Both the position numbers and the translations under genes were made by a program. A stretch of 64,000 bases of DNA, from the NCBI GenBank assembly GCA_016235445.1, contig JACRLB010000001.1, positions 62,001 to 126,000 on the forward strand. The letters are read 5' to 3'. The stretch comes from Chloroflexota bacterium. GTDB lineage: Bacteria > Chloroflexota > Anaerolineae > Anaerolineales > Villigracilaceae. Of this stretch, positions 15,598-64,000 are shown in pieces. The notes beneath the pieces were generated by a model that ran no database searches, had not been told where the DNA came from, and saw only the letters and a list, made by a program, of their open reading frames with translations. How positions within the stretch are numbered: position 1 is the first letter of the stretch; each line of letters starts with the position of its first letter.

Positions 15598-15662
15598 TGA
15601 CTGATAACTGATAACTGATAACTGATAACTGATAACTGATAACTGATAACTGATAACTGATG
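15598..15662. repeat. Heptamer tandem repeat (CTGATAA)x8.6
   Basis: Eight perfect copies of CTGATAA plus a partial one (CTGATG). The seven-base unit puts a stop codon in all three plus frames. The last unit merges into the ATG of the AAC(3) gene at 15660. Copy number can change by strand slippage. Confidence 0.95.
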
Positions 15663-47660: not shown

Positions 47661-47690
47661 GTCAGCCTCATTTAGGAAAGGGTGAAGGTA

Positions 47691-47714
47691 GAAGGATGAA
47701 GGATGAAGGATGAA
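47691..47714. repeat. GAAGGAT heptamer tandem repeat
   Basis: Three units of GAAGGAT plus GAA. Same family at 47339-47355, 48817-48883 (both orientations) and inside the oleC-like gene (62088-62112). Confidence 0.85.
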
Positions 47715-48796: not shown

Positions 48797-49299
48797 GCTG
48801 ACACCTCCTCTCCAAAGGATGAAGGATGAGTGATGAAGGATGAGTCTTCATCCTTTATCCTTCCTCCTTCATCCTTTTCTTCTCCCTTTCCCCAACCAAG
48901 CGGCCCCAACTTGCGGATCTCTTCCACAAACGCAGTGGTCTCTGCCGCAAATTTTGCCCCTTCCGCCGCGCTGGCCCAAACGAGTTTCACGCGTTCGGGT
49001 TCAATGCCCAAGCCTGCGAGCACCCGTCGGAGCAGGTGGAAGCGGCGCAGGGCTTTGTAGTTTTGTTCGATGTAATGACATTCGCCGGGGTGACAGCCCG
49101 TGATCATCACCCCGTCTGCTCCTCCTGAAAGGGCACGCAGGACAAAGGTCGGGTCGAGGCGGCCCGAACACATCATGCGGATGAGCCGCACGTTCGGCGC
49201 ATACTTCATGCGTGCCGTGCCAGCCAAATCCGCCGCGCGATAACTGCACCAGTTGCAGGTAAAGCCGATGATTGTTGGTTCAAAATTATTGTCGGTCAT
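48793..49299 (-). CDS. mvhD: Methyl-viologen-reducing hydrogenase delta subunit (MvhD/FlpD)
   Basis: 168 aa. [2Fe-2S] cysteines CNWCSYRAADLAG (residues 15-27), MMCSGRLDP and GCHPGECHY. It links the hydrogenase to HdrA. The last 30 residues (GGRIKDEDSSFITHPSSFGE) are not part of the family; they are the translation of GAAGGAT-type repeats at 48817-48883 that invade the 3' end. The stop overlaps the mvhG start. Confidence 0.92.
   Translation of the reverse strand: MTDNNFEPTIIGFTCNWCSYRAADLAGTARMKYAPNVRLIRMMCSGRLDPTFVLRALSGGADGVMITGCHPGECHYIEQNYKALRRFHLLRRVLAGLGIEPERVKLVWASAAEGAKFAAETTAFVEEIRKLGPLGWGKGEEKDEGGRIKDEDSSFITHPSSFGEEVSA
48817..48883. repeat. GAAGGAT-type repeats inside the 3' end of mvhD
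   Basis: AAGGATGAAGGATGA on one side and TCATCCTTTATCCTTCCTCC on the other form a long imperfect inverted repeat, in frame, coding the odd C-terminus of MvhD. Confidence 0.8.
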
Positions 49300-56481: not shown

Positions 56482-58485
56482 TTACATTTGCTCGCGGACA
56501 GTCTCTTTGCATAACTCTAAAGCTTCGCTCACCAATTCAATTAAATCCTTGACAACGATCTTCCCTTCCAGCCCCGCAGTTTTGACAGCATCGCGGAACA
56601 TGACCAAATCTTTTGGACAAGTCGTCACCAATGTGGATATGCCTGACATTCCAGCCGCTTCTCTGACGCGGCTTTCCGCGGGTCTCTCTTTAACTTCGGG
56701 TTGTTCCTCCATCCAAATTTTTCCGCCGCCCGCGCCACAGCAAAAAGCCCTGTCGCCGTGACGTGGCATCTCGATCAGCTCACAGCCGAGGGCGCGGATG
56801 ACGCGGCGCGGCGCATCGTAAATTCCGTTGTAACGTCCCAGATAACACGGGTCGTGATAGGTAACTTTGTAACCCAGCTTTTTATTGAATTGCAGTTTGC
56901 CTGATGCGATCAACTGATCGAGCAACTCGGTGTAATGCAGAACGGCATGATGATTTCCGTTTGCAGGATATTCATTTTTGAGCGTGTTGTAGGTGTGCGG
57001 GTCGGTGGTGATGATGGTGTTGTATTTGCATTTGTCCATCGCCGCGCTGTTCTTCTCTGCCAGCGACTCGAACAATCCTTCTTCACCCACGCGGCGGATG
57101 TCGTTGCCCGCGTTGCGTTCGGCATCGTACAGGATGCCAAAATCAAGGTCAGCTTTCTGGAACACTTGCGCCGTCTTGCGCGTGATGTCGGAAAACATAA
57201 CGTGATACGAAGCATAGTCGCCGACGAACCACAGATACTCGACCGCTTCCTTGCGCGCATCCTTGATGACAGGCTGGATGGGCTGTGTCCATTTCGCCCG
57301 CATCCGTTCAGACTGACCGAACGAGTTGCCATAGCGTCCGAGATTTGCCAGAGTCTTTTGCAACAGCGCGTCCACCTCGCCTTCGTTGACAAGGTAGCGG
57401 CGCATGTCAACGATCAGCGGAATGCGCTCGATAAACAGCGGACATTCCTGATCGCAGGCGTAGCAGGTTGTGCAAGCCCACAGCGTAGACGGAGCTACAG
57501 CATCGCCGATCAGTGATCGGGTCGGGAGAGAGGCGGAAGAGTAATCCTTCAAATGATCGCGCAGACTCATCATCAGCAGTTTGGGTGAGAGAGGTTCTCC
57601 GCTTGCAAAGGCAGGGCACATATCCTGGCAACGCCCGCATTCGGTGCAGGTGTAGAAATCCAGCATCTGCCGCCAGCGGAATTGCTCCACTTGCTTGACG
57701 CCGACCTGACCCTCGAATTCCGGCGCGGCGGGCAATCGTCCGCGCGGCTCGAGGTTGCGCAACAGGATAGCGGGAATCGAAGTGACGATATGAAAATGTT
57801 TGCCTTCGGGCAGTTCAGTCAGGAACAGCAACACAACGCCCAGATGAATCCAATACGCGGTTTCTTCGATGATCGTTTGGGTTGCGGGGTTGAGTCCGGC
57901 GAAGAGTCCACCGATGAGGGTAGAGACCGGCCTGTAACGCTGAAGCAGGTCATCGTTAAGATTGATGCGGATGCCATTCGTCACAGCCAGCGTGAGCATA
58001 ATGGTGAAGATGAACATCAGCACCATCAAGCCCTGGCTTTTGTGACTGCCCTTGTATCGTTCGGGGTTGACAATTAAACGCAGATATAAATCATAGAGGA
58101 TCGCGAGCGCGACACACAAAATGAATAAGTCCTGGAGCAATGCCAGCGGTCCGAAATTTCCGATCAGCGGTAGAACAAAGTGAGGGTTGGTGTAAGCCAG
58201 CAACCCTTCAAGAATGGCTTGCAGGATGGTCAGCGAAAGAGTTAGGAATCCCCAAAAGACGAAGAAGTGCGCGATGCCCGGCGCTTTGAAGCGGAACAGG
58301 CGAAGTTGTGCGGCAACATAGACAATCAGTCCCTTGATGCGCTCGCCCCATCCCCCAAAAGCAGGCGTGGATTGTCCGCGCCGCAGTCCCTGCAACGCGA
58401 GATAACACCGCCAGCCAAAGACACCAAAAGAAGCCAGCAGGGCAATCAACACCAGAATGGACTTGACCGCATCGTACGGCATCAT
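56482..58485 (-). CDS. FadF-like membrane Fe-S oxidoreductase (NarI-type cytochrome b + HdrD-type)
   Basis: 667 aa. N-terminal part with about six membrane segments like NarI/DsrM cytochrome b (histidines in APGIAHFFVFWGFL and AYWIHLGVVLLFL), then ferredoxin clusters CTECGRCQDMCP and CTTCYACDQECP, and a CCG domain YHDPCYLGRYNGIYDAPRR with DRAFCCGAGGGKIW. Its first CCG half has lost the cysteines (AGNDIRRVGEEGLFES). Proteins like this pass electrons from Etf to the quinone pool (EtfAB:quinone oxidoreductase). Overlaps etfA by 4 nt. Confidence 0.88.
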   Translation of the reverse strand: MMPYDAVKSILVLIALLASFGVFGWRCYLALQGLRRGQSTPAFGGWGERIKGLIVYVAAQLRLFRFKAPGIAHFFVFWGFLTLSLTILQAILEGLLAYTNPHFVLPLIGNFGPLALLQDLFILCVALAILYDLYLRLIVNPERYKGSHKSQGLMVLMFIFTIMLTLAVTNGIRINLNDDLLQRYRPVSTLIGGLFAGLNPATQTIIEETAYWIHLGVVLLFLTELPEGKHFHIVTSIPAILLRNLEPRGRLPAAPEFEGQVGVKQVEQFRWRQMLDFYTCTECGRCQDMCPAFASGEPLSPKLLMMSLRDHLKDYSSASLPTRSLIGDAVAPSTLWACTTCYACDQECPLFIERIPLIVDMRRYLVNEGEVDALLQKTLANLGRYGNSFGQSERMRAKWTQPIQPVIKDARKEAVEYLWFVGDYASYHVMFSDITRKTAQVFQKADLDFGILYDAERNAGNDIRRVGEEGLFESLAEKNSAAMDKCKYNTIITTDPHTYNTLKNEYPANGNHHAVLHYTELLDQLIASGKLQFNKKLGYKVTYHDPCYLGRYNGIYDAPRRVIRALGCELIEMPRHGDRAFCCGAGGGKIWMEEQPEVKERPAESRVREAAGMSGISTLVTTCPKDLVMFRDAVKTAGLEGKIVVKDLIELVSEALELCKETVREQM

Positions 58486-59450
58486 CTTATCCCTTGGGTT
58501 TCCTTCACCTTCGCAATCAACACTTCAAAGAGGTCGAACATATCAATGACAGCGCCATAACGGGCAATGTCGAAGATCGGCGCGGCGGGGTCGGTGTTGA
58601 TGGCAATGATCATTTCACTACCCATAATCGCTTCGGCATGTTCGGGCGCGCCGCTGATGCCCAGCGTAAGATAAACCTTGGGCTTGACCGTCTTGCCCGA
58701 TTTCCCCACCAGCCGCGAAGTTGGCATCCAGCCCTGATCCACGACCGGGCGCGAAGCGGATACCACGCCCCCTAATGCCTTCGCCAATTCTTCCGCCAGT
58801 TCAAGATTGTCCTGAGTTTGGATTCCGCGCCCCACCGAGACCAGGATCGGCTCCTTGGAAATATCCACATCACCGGCTTCCGCTTCGATATATTGCTTCA
58901 AGGTGACGCGCAGATCATCGAGGGCTGGCGCATCCATTTTGATGATTTCTGGCGTTTTGCCGCTTTGACCCTCTTCCGGCTTATAGCCGCCGGGGATCAT
59001 GGTCAACAAAGTAGTTACCTCAGGCAAGTCGCTTTCAACCATGATCTTGCCGCCGCAAATTTGGCTGATCGGTCTGCCGTCCGCGCTGAAACGCTGACAC
59101 GAACTGATCAGCGGCAGGTTCAAGCGGGCAGATAAAACACCGGACAAATCCGCGCCGATGGATGAACTCGCAAATAAAACTGCGCGCGGTTCTTTCTCAG
59201 CAATCAAACCAGCCAGCGTTTTTTGATAGGCATCTGAAGTGAATTCAGCGAGCGCGGGATGATCCACAACCAATACTTTATCGGCGGACATATTATTGAC
59301 AAGGCTCTGCACGTTATGCCCCAACAACACAGCGACAACTTCCCCGCCAGTCTTTTGGGCTAAAGCGCGCGCGCCCCCCAGCATGATGTAGGAAATATCC
59401 GCCGCCTGACCCCGCAGATGCTCAATGACCACGTAAATATCCTGGTTCAT
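58482..59450 (-). CDS. etfA: Electron transfer flavoprotein alpha subunit
   Basis: 322 aa from ATG 59450 (MNQDIYVVIEHLRGQAADIS). Typical EtfA: SADKVLVVDHPALAEF, LFASSSIGADLSGVLSARLN, and the FAD-binding C-terminal half LVSVGRGIQTQDNLELAEEL, SRPVVDQGWMPTSRLVGKSG, YLTLGISGAPEHAEAI, ININTDPAAPIFD-like IAINTDPAAPIFDIARYG. With EtfB it carries electrons from acyl-CoA dehydrogenases or bifurcating enzymes. Confidence 0.93.
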   Translation of the reverse strand: MNQDIYVVIEHLRGQAADISYIMLGGARALAQKTGGEVVAVLLGHNVQSLVNNMSADKVLVVDHPALAEFTSDAYQKTLAGLIAEKEPRAVLFASSSIGADLSGVLSARLNLPLISSCQRFSADGRPISQICGGKIMVESDLPEVTTLLTMIPGGYKPEEGQSGKTPEIIKMDAPALDDLRVTLKQYIEAEAGDVDISKEPILVSVGRGIQTQDNLELAEELAKALGGVVSASRPVVDQGWMPTSRLVGKSGKTVKPKVYLTLGISGAPEHAEAIMGSEMIIAINTDPAAPIFDIARYGAVIDMFDLFEVLIAKVKETQGIR

Positions 59451-59463
59451 TATGCGCCTCCTC

Positions 59464-60228
59464 TCACAGCACGCCGATTTCTTTGAAGATATCAAGGAGT
59501 CTTGTGGTGACTTCTTCTGCGCTCCCTTCGATCATTTCGGCTCTCGTCCCCGCCTCTGGCTTGAACATGCGGCGAATCGTCGAGCCGCCGCTGAGGTCTG
59601 ATTCAGCCAATGTCCGCACTTCGATGGTTGCCGTCTTCATTGCCTGCCGCACCTTGGCGACGGCAATGTAACGCGGAGGTTGCTCTGCCGCTTGAATGCC
59701 AAGGACAGCCGGCAATTTGATTTCCATCTCGGCGACCAACCCGCCGGGGTATTCTTTGCGCGTTATCACTTTTCCATCCGCTACTTTCACACCGGACACA
59801 TAGCCAACGTAAGGCATGTCCAAATATTCAGCCAGCAAAGGTCCGAGTGACCCGTCCAGGTCGGTATTGGCTTGCACGCCCGTCAGGATCAAATCTGGTT
59901 GAAGTTCTTTCAAGGCTGAGGTAACCGCCCGCGCCATGGCATGATTATTCGCCTTCCCCTGAAAATCACCCGTGAGTTTGATTAACCGATCCGCGCCTTT
60001 GGATGCGGCGGTATAAAGCACATCTTCCACCCCCTCGATATCCGGGCCGAGGATACTTACCTGCGCCCCGCCGCGTTCTTTCAGCAAAATAGCCTGCTCG
60101 ATGGCATGGTCATCGAACTCATTGATGATCAGGCGCAGAAAATCCATATTCAAGGCTGTTCCGTTCCCGTCAATTTCGAGTTCTTCCACCAGGTCGGGAA
60201 CAAGTTTGAAGAGGGCAACGATGTTCAT
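59464..60228 (-). CDS. etfB: Electron transfer flavoprotein beta subunit
   Basis: 254 aa. MNIVALFKLVPDLVEELEID, INEFDDHAIEQAILLKE, LTGVQANTDLDGSLGPLLAE (the region that in NAD-linked bifurcating Etfs holds the second flavin, in others AMP), and YVGYVSGVK. 26 nt after the HdrD-like gene and 13 nt before etfA, so one unit. Whether it bifurcates cannot be told by eye. Confidence 0.92.
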   Translation of the reverse strand: MNIVALFKLVPDLVEELEIDGNGTALNMDFLRLIINEFDDHAIEQAILLKERGGAQVSILGPDIEGVEDVLYTAASKGADRLIKLTGDFQGKANNHAMARAVTSALKELQPDLILTGVQANTDLDGSLGPLLAEYLDMPYVGYVSGVKVADGKVITRKEYPGGLVAEMEIKLPAVLGIQAAEQPPRYIAVAKVRQAMKTATIEVRTLAESDLSGGSTIRRMFKPEAGTRAEMIEGSAEEVTTRLLDIFKEIGVL

Positions 60229-60253
60229 GTGTTACCTCCGCTTCTTGATCGTA

Positions 60254-61474
60254 CTATCCAAGCGACTCGGCGAGCAGTTCGGCAATATCCTTCACGATCA
60301 ACGGTCCGCTTCCATTCAGGGATTTGACCGCATCCTCGAAGCGCGGCGTCTCATACGGGCAAGCCACCGCCAGGATGCTCGCGCCGCTGGTCACTGCCTC
60401 ACGAACCCGCCAATCTGACATACGCACATGCGCCTTTTCCCATTGAAAACCGTCCAGCCACATGCCTCCGCCCCCGCCGCCGCAACAGAGACTGTTGGCA
60501 TGGTTGTGCGCCATTTCCACCAACTCCACGCCGGGGATGGCTTCCAATAACGCGCGCGGCTGATCGAAGATTCCATTGGCGCGCCCCAGATAACACGGGT
60601 CGTGATATGTGACTTTGGCTTTCACTTCATGCTTCAACAGCGGCGTGAGCTGTTCGAGATGTTCGACCAGATACTCGGTGAAGTGTTGAACCGGGTAGGA
60701 AATCCCCAGCCGTGGATATTCATTTTTAATGGCGTTGTACGCGTGCGGGTCTGTCGTAATAATCCTGTTGAATTGATACTTGCTGAACACTTTCCCGTTC
60801 TTCTCCGCCAACATTTCAAACAGACCGCGTTCACCCGCCAGCCGTTGTGAATCGCCGTCGCTGGATTCATCGGGACCCAGAATGCCAAAATCCACGCCCA
60901 GCGCGTTGAGGACTTTAGCCAGCGCCTTCGTGGTGGATTGAACACGCGGATGATAGGATGGATAATCGCCAACGAACCAGAGCACATCCACCGGCTGTTT
61001 GACCTTCCCCATTATTTTGACTTCAGGTTGGATGCCGTTCGCCCAGTCCGCCCGCTTGCGCGGAGATTCACCCTGAGGGTTGCCATATCGCTGGGAGTTT
61101 GCCAGCGCAGTTTGAAGTTCCGCGGGAACGTTGCCAGCCAGAAGCAACTCCTCTTTAACGCTGGTCATCAAACCAAACGTAAGCGGAATCTTTGACGGGC
61201 AAACCGCAGTGCAGGCATAGCAGGAAACACACATCCAGACCGTGTCGGTTTCCAGCACTTTATTGAATCTGTCCGCGCGCAACATGGCAATCAGTCTGCT
61301 GGGTGGGTAGGTCATCAAATAGCCGAATGGACAAATCCCACTGCAATTCCCACACTCCAGGCAAAGCCTTAACTGCTCGCCATTCGGCGCAGCCGCAAGC
61401 ACTTTCTCGTAAAAGGAAATATCATCTTCGCGCGTCGATCCCGCTCGAACACTTTCATCTGTCATCTGGGGCAT
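60254..61474 (-). CDS. Soluble HdrD-like Fe-S oxidoreductase with CCG domain
   Basis: 406 aa from ATG 61474 (MPQMTDESVRAGSTREDDIS), chosen because GGAGG lies 5 nt upstream; a start 10 codons earlier would cover the SD. Ferredoxin clusters CLECGNCSGICP and CVSCYACTAVCP; a CCG domain YHDPCYLGRANGIFDQPRA with NSLCCGGGGGGMWLD. Like its FadF-like paralogue it lacks the cysteines of the first CCG half (DGDSQRLAGERGLFEM). First gene of the cluster. Probably an electron carrier between Etf and other partners. Confidence 0.88.
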   Translation of the reverse strand: MPQMTDESVRAGSTREDDISFYEKVLAAAPNGEQLRLCLECGNCSGICPFGYLMTYPPSRLIAMLRADRFNKVLETDTVWMCVSCYACTAVCPSKIPLTFGLMTSVKEELLLAGNVPAELQTALANSQRYGNPQGESPRKRADWANGIQPEVKIMGKVKQPVDVLWFVGDYPSYHPRVQSTTKALAKVLNALGVDFGILGPDESSDGDSQRLAGERGLFEMLAEKNGKVFSKYQFNRIITTDPHAYNAIKNEYPRLGISYPVQHFTEYLVEHLEQLTPLLKHEVKAKVTYHDPCYLGRANGIFDQPRALLEAIPGVELVEMAHNHANSLCCGGGGGGMWLDGFQWEKAHVRMSDWRVREAVTSGASILAVACPYETPRFEDAVKSLNGSGPLIVKDIAELLAESLG

Positions 61475-61619
61475 GTAAGCCTCCGTGCCACAACCAAACC
61501 ACACCAGTTGCTGCTCGGTCTAACCGAAGTCATCCATTCGCAGTAAAGATGAAACACCCCCACAAATCAGAGTAGTGAAATTCATCACAACTCCAAGTAA
61601 CAAACATAACAGCCCAAAC

Positions 61620-61656: not shown

Positions 61657-63261
61657 ATGCATCTCTTCGCCAAATTTGAACAAACCGCCCTCACCCATCC
61701 CCACAAACCCGCCTTCATTTATTTTGACAAGAACGACTGGAAGACTCTCACCTACGCCCAACTTCTTGACCAAACCCACCGCTTCCTTCGTGGACTTTCA
61801 GCCTGCCCGCTGACCCCCGGCATGTCCGCCGCTGTAATGACTCCCCCCAGCGCCGAGTTCTTCCCCTTCGCCCTCGCCCTGCTCAAATTCGGCATCATCC
61901 CCATTATCCTCGACCCCGCCATCGGCCTGAAAAAAGTCGGCCAGATACTCAAAGAATCCCAACCCGATATTTTCATCGGCAACACGCTCACGCATTTACT
62001 TCGAATTGTTTTTGGATGGGGTAGAAATTCCATAAAGCACAACCTCTCGATTCAATCTGTCAAAAGTCGAAAGTCGAATGTCAACCACTTCATCCTCCAT
62101 CCTTCATCCTTCATCCCTGCCCCTCCCGCCGCCATCATCTACACCTCCGGCAGTACCGGCCTCCCCAAAGGCGCCATCTACACCCACTCCAACCTCGCCG
62201 CCCAACTGGATTTGCTCCAAAACACCTTTGGCATCTCGCAGGATGAAATTGACCTGCCCGCCTTCCCCCTCTACGCGCTGATCGACCTCCTGCTCGGCGT
62301 CACATCGGTTATTCCAGATATCACCTTCCCCATCCCCGCCAAAACCGACCCTGCAAAAGTGATTCGGGCAATTCAGCAATTCAGCGTGACAAATATGTTC
62401 GCCTCGCCTGTGGTATTGGATATTCTCGCCTCCTTCTGGAGTCCAGCAGCTTGCTGCTGGCGGGAGCGAGCTCCCGCACTCCAGAGTCTCAAACGCATCA
62501 TCACCGCAGGCGCGCCCGCCACCATTCCCTTGCAGGAGAATTTCAGAAACCTGCTCGACGACCACACCAACCTCTTCGGCATTTACGGCGCGACGGAATC
62601 CCTGCCCATCGCCAAAGTGGAAAGCCGCGAGATATTCTCTTTAAAAGAAAAGACCGAATCAGGCGCGGGGATTTGCCTCGGCAAGCCCATCAAAGGGGTG
62701 GCTGTGCGAATCATCCGAATCAGCGATGCGGCGATTCAGGAGTGGCAGGAGTCGCTCTCAGTGGAATCAAATGTCGTTGGCGAGATCACAGTTCAAAGCG
62801 CGGCCACGACGCGGGCGTACGTAGGTCAAATTGGCAATTTGACCTACAAAATTAAACTTGGCGATGACATCATCCACCGCACGGGAGATGTGGGCTACTT
62901 CGATGAAGCAGGCCGCCTCTGGTATTGCGGACGCAAATCGCACCGCGTCATCACAAAAGAAGAAGTTTTATTTACCGAACAAATCGAAAACATCTTCAAC
63001 GCGCATCCGCAAGTAAAGCGAACTGCGCTGGTGGGCGTGAACAGCGAGCCCGTCTTGTGGGTGGAATTGGAAAAGCATGTTCGCGCAAATAAAGATAAAA
63101 TCAGGCAGGCTTTAATGGCGCTGTCACAACATCACCCGCAGGCTTCAAAGATCAAGGAATTTTTATTCATGAAAAAATTTCCAACCGACGTACGCCACAA
63201 CTCCAAAATCATCCGCGAACAACTTGCGGCTCAGGCAAACAAACGAATCTCCAGTCTCTAA
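61657..63261 (+). CDS. oleC: OleC-like AMP-dependent synthetase (beta-lactone synthetase type)
   Basis: 534 aa. Adenylation motifs: P-loop IIYTSGSTGLPKGAIYTH (near residue 167), LPAFPLYALIDLLLGVTSVI and PAKTDPAKVIRAIQ typical of OleC, IYGATESLPIA, HRTGDVGYFDEAGRLWYCGR with KSHRVI, and the final Lys region HNSKIIREQLA. OleC makes beta-lactones from 2-alkyl-3-hydroxyacids for long-chain olefin synthesis. The protein holds three stretches coded by inserted repeats (residues about 133-157, 261-275 and 389-397). Followed after 36 nt by the oleD-like gene. Confidence 0.88.
   Translation: MHLFAKFEQTALTHPHKPAFIYFDKNDWKTLTYAQLLDQTHRFLRGLSACPLTPGMSAAVMTPPSAEFFPFALALLKFGIIPIILDPAIGLKKVGQILKESQPDIFIGNTLTHLLRIVFGWGRNSIKHNLSIQSVKSRKSNVNHFILHPSSFIPAPPAAIIYTSGSTGLPKGAIYTHSNLAAQLDLLQNTFGISQDEIDLPAFPLYALIDLLLGVTSVIPDITFPIPAKTDPAKVIRAIQQFSVTNMFASPVVLDILASFWSPAACCWRERAPALQSLKRIITAGAPATIPLQENFRNLLDDHTNLFGIYGATESLPIAKVESREIFSLKEKTESGAGICLGKPIKGVAVRIIRISDAAIQEWQESLSVESNVVGEITVQSAATTRAYVGQIGNLTYKIKLGDDIIHRTGDVGYFDEAGRLWYCGRKSHRVITKEEVLFTEQIENIFNAHPQVKRTALVGVNSEPVLWVELEKHVRANKDKIRQALMALSQHHPQASKIKEFLFMKKFPTDVRHNSKIIREQLAAQANKRISSL
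62059..62112. repeat. Heptamer-type repeats inside oleC-like gene
   Basis: AAAGTCGAAAGTCGAATGTC followed by CATCCTCCATCCTTCATCC. In frame, coding SRKSNVNHFILHPSSF, in the linker before the P-loop motif. Same repeat families as in gaps of the hydrogenase genes. Confidence 0.85.
62438..62482. repeat. 45-bp nested palindrome inserted in oleC-like gene
   Basis: GGAGT, then CCAGCAGC-TT-GCTGCTGG, then CGGGAGC-GA-GCTCCCG, then ACTCC, so two hairpins enclosed by a third stem. Length 45 = 15 codons, so the frame is kept. Codes about WSPAACCWRERAPALQ. Confidence 0.92.
62821..62847. repeat. 27-bp palindrome inserted in oleC-like gene
   Basis: GTAGGTCAAATT-GGC-AATTTGACCTAC: 12-bp perfect arms. 27 bp = 9 codons, exactly on codon borders, coding VGQIGNLTY between TTRAY and KIKLGDD. 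Confidence 0.95.
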
Positions 63262-63297
63262 TCTCCAATCTCTCATCCTCTCCTTCTCAAACCTTCC

Positions 63298-64000
63298 ATG
63301 AAATCATTAATCACCGGCGCAACAGGTTTCCTCGGCGGCGCACTCACCCGCCGCTTGCACAACATGGGCTGGGATGTCACCGCCCTCGGACGCAACGCAT
63401 CCAAACTCGATCAACTCGAAAGTGAAGGCATTCGCACACATCAACTGGACTTAAAAGATAAACCTGGCATGGCCGCCGCCTGCAAAAATCAGGAGATCGT
63501 TTTTCACTGCGCGGCGCTCCCCTCACCCTGGGGAAATTTTGAAGCGTTCTATCAGGCCAATGTCATCGGCACGCGCAATGTGATTCATGCCTGCGAAGAA
63601 AACAAAGTGAAACGGCTCGTGTATGTTTCCACGCCGAGTCTTTATTTCGATTACAAATCCAAAATCAACGTGAAGGAAACAGATGAACTTCCCGAACCCG
63701 TCAGCAATTATGCCGCCACCAAACTGCTGGCCGAGGAGGAAATTGATAAAGCGTTTGCAAACGGACTCGCCGCCATTGCCATTCGTCCGCGTGCGATTTT
63801 CGGGCCTGGCGACACAGTTATTTTTCCGAGGTTGATCCCGCGCCTGCAATCGGGCAGGCTTCCCATTTTAGGCGGCGGCGAAAACATCGTTGACCTGACC
63901 TACATCGAAAACGTGGTGGACGCGCTTTTGCTGTGCGCCGAATCGCCAGCCAGCACGCTTGGCAAAAAATACAATATCTCGAACGGTGAGCCTGTCAAAA
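63298..64000 (+). CDS. oleD: OleD-like NAD(P)-dependent epimerase/dehydrogenase (partial)
   Basis: 234 codons from ATG 63298 to the window edge. SDR-extended type: LITGATGFLGGALTRRL (nucleotide-binding GxxGxxG), VFHCAALPSPWGNFEAFYQA, VYVSTPSLYFDYKS, and the catalytic YAATK (SNYAATKLLAEEE), then RPRAIFGPGDTVIFPRLIPR and VDLTYIENVVDALLL. Like 3-beta-HSD/OleD, which reduces the 2-alkyl-3-ketoacid made by OleA; its product is the OleC substrate. Lies 36 nt after oleC, no SD. Confidence 0.82.
   Translation, partial: MKSLITGATGFLGGALTRRLHNMGWDVTALGRNASKLDQLESEGIRTHQLDLKDKPGMAAACKNQEIVFHCAALPSPWGNFEAFYQANVIGTRNVIHACEENKVKRLVYVSTPSLYFDYKSKINVKETDELPEPVSNYAATKLLAEEEIDKAFANGLAAIAIRPRAIFGPGDTVIFPRLIPRLQSGRLPILGGGENIVDLTYIENVVDALLLCAESPASTLGKKYNISNGEPVK

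Follow-up and report, generated by a model that had tools for sequence, protein, structure and literature searches.

Probable capture of dispersed REP-like palindromes, often by overwriting of codons, in an oleC-like gene and other genes of a Chloroflexota bacterium

Two families of dispersed palindromes, here called P1 and P2, lie in frame within an oleC-like gene of a Chloroflexota bacterium (assembly GCA_016235445.1) and recur in further genes of its genome. Their presence changes the length of some host genes and leaves that of others unaltered, and the two arms of P1 co-vary at sites shared with related genomes. We consider it probable that genes have captured these REP-like palindromes, in many cases with native codons overwritten, and that the arms were homogenised afterwards. 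The window, the whole stretch of DNA analysed, comprises 64,000 nucleotides of contig JACRLB010000001.1, and the features discussed are located in Table 1. The original prediction had placed three different repeat types in frame in this one gene, and all three are present and in frame, with P1 bounded exactly by codon borders.

Table 1. Positions, within the window, of the repeats, their host gene and the adjoining gene
Feature	Position	Strand	Basis
oleC-like adenylating enzyme gene, 534 aa, host of all the repeats	61657..63261	+	Open reading frame, profile matches
Heptamer array 1, AAAGTCG type, first part of the linker before the TSGSTG motif	62059..62082	+	Sequence
Heptamer array 2, CTTCATC, 4.1 copies	62088..62116	+	Tandem Repeats Finder
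P2, 51 nt, TCTGGAGT, two inner hairpins and ACTCCAGA, in frame	62435..62485	+	Coordinates, predicted fold
P1, perfect 27-bp palindrome GTAGGTCAAATTGGCAATTTGACCTAC, read VGQIGNLTY, supplanting about 10 native codons	62821..62847	+	
Heptamer array AATCTCC, spanning the stop codon of the oleC-like gene	63246..63277	+	Tandem Repeats Finder
oleD-like reductase gene, downstream, truncated where the window ends, given as context	63298..63999	+	NCBIfam oxyalk_red_OleD

The translated oleC-like protein matches the Pfam AMP-binding profile at 165.5 bits and NCBIfam PRK09274 (fatty acid CoA ligase family) at 537.8 bits, above the cut-off of 478, and does not reach the two NCBIfam equivalog cut-offs for olefin beta-lactone synthetase (471.5 against 900 bits and 459.7 against 850 bits). 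The gene is called oleC-like because the OleC equivalog cut-offs are missed, PRK09274 is passed and an oleD-like gene adjoins; the partial product of the latter scores 209.2 bits against oxyalk_red_OleD (cut-off 580). As predicted, the motifs YTSGSTGLPKG, GIYGATES, HRTGD and GRKSHRV, which we take to be the core motifs of an adenylating enzyme, are intact in the translation. With the element codons excluded, comparison with the nearest orthologue gave a dN of 0.126 and a dS of 0.813, which shows that the frame is a genuine gene subject to purifying selection. In 23 family genomes OleC-like sequences were matched at an identity of at least 35%, and 20 of these orthologues were aligned. Upstream, minus-strand genes at 56482-61504 resemble, from their translations, electron-transfer flavoprotein subunits and iron-sulfur (CCG-type) proteins.

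The heptamer repeats, previously delimited as 62059-62112, are indeed present, and they form two mutually unrelated arrays with the limits given in Table 1. The linker segment that holds them occurs in all 21 OleC sequences, and other heptamers fill it in 9 of the 20 relatives. A periodicity of seven bases before the TSGSTG motif (shuffle P < 0.01) was found in 10 of the 21, our own included (lag-7 periodicity 0.55, shuffle P 0.000), with units that differ from genome to genome. AAAGTCG was considered as a dispersed family and rejected, its 5 forward and 4 reverse matches genome-wide showing no enrichment over the control (7 and 3). The heptamer stretch is a slippage-prone hypervariable linker and not a captured element. 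The CTTCATC unit or its complement also occurs at 47678, 48815 and 48846 of the window, which contains further heptamer arrays, ACTGATA (8.9 copies, 15600-15661) and AAGGATG (5.3 copies, 47678-47714), and AAGGATG and CTTCATC arrays stand side by side at 48815-48876.

P2 had been described as a nested palindrome of 45 bp (62438-62482); it is real, and its true extent is the 51 nt of Table 1. It is predicted to fold into three stems, an outer one enclosing two inner hairpins (-32.2 kcal/mol). The pattern of its ends matches the genome 26 times in forward and 22 times in reverse orientation, where the control gave 2 and 0 matches; in total 29 places are marked, three of which (C15:16866, C30:4432 and C41:101359) were dropped by eye as unstructured, leaving 26. 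While the ends are constant, the inner stems vary freely, with 22 distinct stem ends among the 26 copies. Length depends on location: a length of 54 nt, a class picked out after inspection of the data, is found in 5 of the 8 genic copies and in none of the 18 others (Fisher p 0.00085), and the length is divisible by three in 6 of the 8 genic and 5 of the 18 other copies (p 0.038). Copies lying 5' of the first Met in open frames (L075, L079, L084, L103 and L104) were not counted as genic in these comparisons, and most of them fall in the other group. We read these lengths as frame selection on genic P2 and count them as support for capture of the palindromes by genes.

In the oleC-like gene, P2 appears to sit in a loop of variable length; the segment bearing it measures 78 nt, against 57-63 nt in most relatives and up to 96 nt. 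P2 in its own form is absent from the 20 aligned OleC relatives. The loop of one relative (L009) contains a P2-like half element, a half hairpin, and that of another (L013, from G076) an unrelated palindrome with a strong predicted hairpin (-25.7 kcal/mol), and this loop, too, is a place of turnover. The placement of all the OleC segments in loops is likewise suggested by sequence comparison. None of the 20 aligned orthologues carries the residues VGQIGNLTY or WSPAACCWRERAP, from unrelated codons or otherwise.

P1 of the oleC-like gene pairs at 13 of 13 positions. Its family has 22 sites in the 4.13-Mb genome at up to 3 mismatches, the reversed control having none, and several variants change at matching places of both arms (T-A, A-T and G-C at positions 6/22). 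A scan of 84,980 species genomes (GTDB contigs), which may omit records near our own genome, returned exact P1 in 21 stretches; the 10 MAGs to which these belong all bear the name Chloroflexi, Anaerolineales or Anaerolineaceae in their titles. Six intergenic copies (L035, L036, L037, L038, L040 and L004) share, by eye, common flanks (gcaaggt before and atgtacggaggc after, or the complement), so these copies lie inside a longer repeat.

The search of other genes of this genome that the original prediction called for showed that both families recur there. Counting P1 variants, P1 and P2 lie in frame within 14 different Pfam-supported genes, seven with P1 and eight with P2. The P1 genes encode OleC, an amidohydrolase, RsmI, a TrmA-like methyltransferase (MTase), PheT, acetyl-CoA synthetase (Acs) and shikimate kinase-DHQ synthase (SKI-DHQ synthase). 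P2 lies in genes for OleC, APH_6 kinase, ADH, Oxidored_FMN (OYE-like), FAD-oxidase_C, ADDB_N, S9 peptidase and DUF2298, and in two frames (L076 and L080) with no Pfam match. One palindrome family thus occurs in frame across several unrelated conserved genes, as expected of elements that behave like those of Rickettsia. Most of the remaining copies lie outside Pfam-supported genes or in 5' extensions of frames. P1 was also seen in histidine kinase, GlyS and glycosyltransferase copies (L065, L067, L069/L209 and L196), and the alignment of the kinase to solved structures is gapped nearby. The idea that P1 is confined to a single reading frame, suggested by frame 0 in all 7 of our own genes, was abandoned, since locus L073 differs. 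At L073 (2-1144, a named MAG), P1 is read in another frame (RSNCQFDL) inside an open frame of 381 aa. In another named MAG, of the Anaerolineaceae, a GlyS-like frame (L063, 3360-6389) contains two P1 palindromes and an extra VGQISNLS stretch.

The original prediction treated the segments as insertions by which the protein had grown, and as a general account this does not hold. In OleC, VGQIGNLTY stands in place of about 10 residues of the IQREDADRIS type in relatives, so that 10 codons become 9; the P1 segment measures 78 nt, whereas among the 19 anchored relatives it spans 81 nt in 16 and 84 nt in 3. P1 and the heptamer linker are accordingly not extra, and of the three segments P2 alone lies in one longer than that of most relatives. 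In RsmI, the TrmA-like MTase and the amidohydrolase, nine codons are overwritten with zero change of length. There is no gap across P1 relative to 18, 14 and 12 congeners, respectively (the MTase set counts one genome twice), and the solved structures 9pzg and 5hw4 (RsmI), 1uwv, 5xj1 and 5zq0 (MTase) and 3hpa and 7ww2 (amidohydrolase) align over P1 without a gap; 3ls9 shows a one-residue gap there against the amidohydrolase. From these gap-free alignments it follows that the native length predates the palindrome in these three genes.

Other genes show a net insertion relative to their orthologues. P1 adds nine codons to Acs, relative to the 16 of 22 congeners without the insert, and leaves a nine-residue gap against 8rpk; in PheT it adds six relative to the common form. 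P2 adds 15 codons to ADH compared with G115, and 10 to the OYE-like gene compared with the 7 compact relatives among 12. Because the gains in ADH and the OYE-like gene fall short of the length of P2, this element also replaces sequence. P2-like sequence was found in 6 of 10 ADH congeners. The P2 segment of the FAD-oxidase gene (81 nt) lies inside the 66-90 nt range of its relatives; in the FAD-oxidase of G114 (L170), the loop that houses P2 in our gene reads LESFPLSHRERAGVRE, from a CCCCTCTCTCACAGGGAGAGGG-type repeat. In DHQ synthase, our own form and that of G071, the sole congener with a different-looking stretch, differ by about 8 codons, ours being the shorter.

An absence of length change could conceal an insertion followed by trimming. 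One alternative is a clean insertion in the style of the Rickettsia elements, after which neighbouring codons were deleted under selection for protein length, with the zero-length cases as two-step events. The apparent clean gain of 27 nt in Acs, the P2 gains in ADH and the OYE-like gene and the frequent 54-nt length of genic P2 copies fit such a course. However, in three of the seven P1 genes the length between the tightly conserved flanks has not changed by a single codon and OleC has lost one codon, and trimming of exactly 27 nt each time is implausible without an intermediate, of which none was seen. We regard this alternative as rather unlikely.

The arms of the palindrome differ between genomes at the same codons. 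Congeners carry palindromes with other arms at our own P1 codons in the MTase (G114 and G100, 11 of 13 pairs), RsmI (G008, G100, G113 and G116, 11 of 13), DHQ synthase (G100, 13 of 13; G104, 12 of 13) and Acs (G100, 13 of 13; G102, G104 and G114, 11 of 13). In PheT, only our own sequence and that of G114 reach 11 pairs or more, the latter with 13 of 13 and shifted by 9 nt. The Acs palindromes of G100 and of G104 are each the sole match of their arm type in their genome, and hence a sister copy present today is an unlikely source for them. With our own row omitted, the covariation score of the P1 site exceeded those of all other windows of the respective alignments for the MTase (367 of 367), RsmI (334 of 334) and DHQ synthase (285 of 285). 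Mean pairing was less exclusive, being reached by 8 of 367, 0 of 334 and 1 of 285 windows, respectively. The amidohydrolase site showed no covariation once our own row was omitted, its score being matched by 9 of 292 windows. Across six genes, at least 11 of 13 pairs were formed by 13 of 117 congener site sequences, each scored as the best of 25 offsets, compared with 0 of 36,066 other windows, which were scored singly; at least 10 pairs were formed by 18 of 117 and 10 of 36,066.

Chance quasi-palindromes arising from protein constraint and codon bias would be expected above all in RsmI, whose QIANL codons are self-complementary. The native RsmI residues QIANLPY already give a near-palindrome, unpaired native relatives still read xxQVxxLPY, and random synonymous codons for the same peptides yield about 7 of 13 pairs, so part of the RsmI pairing signal may be protein constraint. 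The observed 11 to 13 pairs nevertheless exceed the synonymous null: for ten chosen palindromic rows, P ranged from 0/20,000 to 0.016 (about 0.02), and the observed pairing was reached in 0 of 20,000 random draws for RsmI of G024 and for PheT of G114. OleC, Acs and PheT, moreover, have no native match, and we judge an origin by chance very improbable. A wider RsmI survey used nine-codon segments taken at a fixed distance before the TLIFLES-type motif. Among the best 30 loci of 57 matching family genomes, at least 10 pairs were formed in 11; eight of these 11 are among the 25 loci outside the genus and fall in five genera; RsmI of G058 and of G024 both pair at 13 of 13 positions with arms that differ.

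Arm covariation at several sites, and stems of P1 and P2 that vary freely while pairing persists (as in the 22 stem ends among 26 P2 copies), could also mean that a hairpin or DNA-binding site is selected at these places, the arms co-varying for the function of the structure and not through a mutational process. We find this improbable: 104 of the 117 congener site sequences form fewer than 11 of 13 pairs, the host genes have nothing evident in common, and the palindromes pile up in certain genomes (G100, G114, G104 and our own) and not in certain genes. These four genomes lie apart on the concatenated tree, and the scattered appearance of the sites rests on this weakly supported tree (14 of 27 values below 70). 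Genomes with more palindromic sites also have more other P1 copies (Spearman 0.40, p 0.03; Pearson 0.67, permutation p 0.003); this correlation covers 29 congeners, without G101, and uses counts entered by hand and uncorrected for relatedness.

An assembly or binning artefact of metagenome-assembled genomes is hardly credible. Our genome consists of 55 contigs, and assemblers may be misled by short repeats. On the other hand, repeats of 27 to 51 nt are below read length, the frames remain open, and the same sites recur in other genomes, some of which are in one or two contigs (G008, G054, G058 and G114).

The reading we favour, capture with subsequent homogenisation, would run as follows. P1 and P2 are families of dispersed palindromes, REP-like in kind, of this Anaerolineales lineage; they also enter genes, and they are probably mobilised by a Y1 (RAYT-like) transposase. 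Capture would not be a clean insertion: the target stretch would be lost and the palindrome would take over its place, presumably in a template-directed manner through replication template switching or repair synthesis. The net length change ranges from about -8 to +9 codons and is often exactly zero. Survival would be limited to products that stay in frame and are tolerated by the protein. P1 and P2 would be two captures that survived in OleC, beside a linker independently built of slipping heptamers. The arms would be homogenised rather than selected, staying complementary as the sequence shifts, most likely by template switching between arms or by conversion from other copies.

Six Y1_Tnp profile matches were found in our genome. 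The Y1-transposase gene at L192 is flanked on both sides by GTAG palindromes (1398-1428 and 2087-2117) in a REPtron-like arrangement; the pair consists of GTAGCGCAAATTGTCAATTTGCGCTAC and a second GTAG palindrome, which lies inside the open frame, upstream of the domain. A P2-like element stands just upstream of the Y1_Tnp locus L193, and neither P1 nor P2 was found near the other four of the six loci.

A more specific proposal is tentatively advanced as a possibility, namely that the P1-type palindrome spreads by substitution. Where the family is abundant, it may have overwritten the same codons of RsmI, DHQ synthase, the MTase and Acs repeatedly and independently in different genera, in some cases without net insertion. 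The targets are P1-like beforehand, RsmI most of all, where the native QIANL codons form the 15-nt core CAAATTGCCAATTTG; due to this resemblance, rsmI may be a magnet or the birthplace of the P1 family.

Intragenic bacterial repeats are usually described as lengthening insertions, and here one family also swaps native codons in place; it does so at matching codons in relatives, where the two arms change in step. Such a process would give a route for nine adjacent residues of a housekeeping enzyme to change at once, and tests for convergent evolution or positive selection would be led astray by it. In-frame palindromes may thus be a recurrent source of sudden protein changes, and the entry of REPs and Rickettsia elements into genes becomes testable by comparison of close strains.

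Intragenic REPs and Rickettsia palindromic elements (RPE) are already known; the new part is recurrent length-neutral overwriting, and no report of palindromes overwriting codons in Chloroflexota was found among the open-licence papers listed. GTAG/CGTC REPs are small dispersed palindromes, mostly intergenic, with some in frame within conserved genes (Di Nocera et al. 2013, PMC3733652). They are reported in Chloroflexi, with intragenic REPs also in Rickettsia, and are linked to Y1 (RAYT) transposases; some genes are struck twice, and recB of X. campestris and X. oryzae is hit at about the same site (PMC3733652). P1 agrees with the definition given there of a dispersed palindrome of 20-40 bp (27 bp, 22 sites, control 0). 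The GTAG tag of such a REP stays unpaired at one end, whereas both ends of P1 are paired, GTAG with CTAC, and the gene copies of REPs are described as insertions; length-neutral replacement and co-varying arms at shared codons, seen here, were not found in the available part of that source (PMC3733652). P2 ends in CTGGAGT/ACTCCAG and not in GTAG. Its two inverted hairpins between complementary ends resemble a head-to-head REP pair, as in REP dimers or BIMEs, from which it differs in these ends and in inner stems that are free to vary.

Template switching creates RNA hairpins (PMC8794818), and in yeast coding DNA it makes the arms of inverted repeats identical through multinucleotide, length-neutral and recurrent changes (PMC8604942). 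The yeast homogenisation is local and is not tied to a dispersed family, whereas the palindrome described here also belongs with a family found across the genome. Perfect inverted repeats of up to 284 bp are kept inside functional coding sequence in the mitochondria of Nematomorpha (PMC6649704). P1 and P2 are similarly retained within functional coding DNA, although the Nematomorpha palindromes are much longer and mitochondrial, and the abstract makes no mention of a dispersed family. The likeness to Rickettsia drawn by the original prediction is borne out in that palindromes of more than one type lie in frame in a single gene of a Chloroflexota bacterium, where the segments holding them differ from orthologue to orthologue, and in that both families recur in other genes of the genome. 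The RPE are fused in frame into conserved protein genes, are tolerated there and measure 105-146 bp (PMC2229807). P1 and P2 are likewise in-frame palindromes in conserved genes that the protein tolerates, and they differ from the RPE in their lengths of 27 and 51 bp, in the phylum, in overwriting and in belonging to several families.
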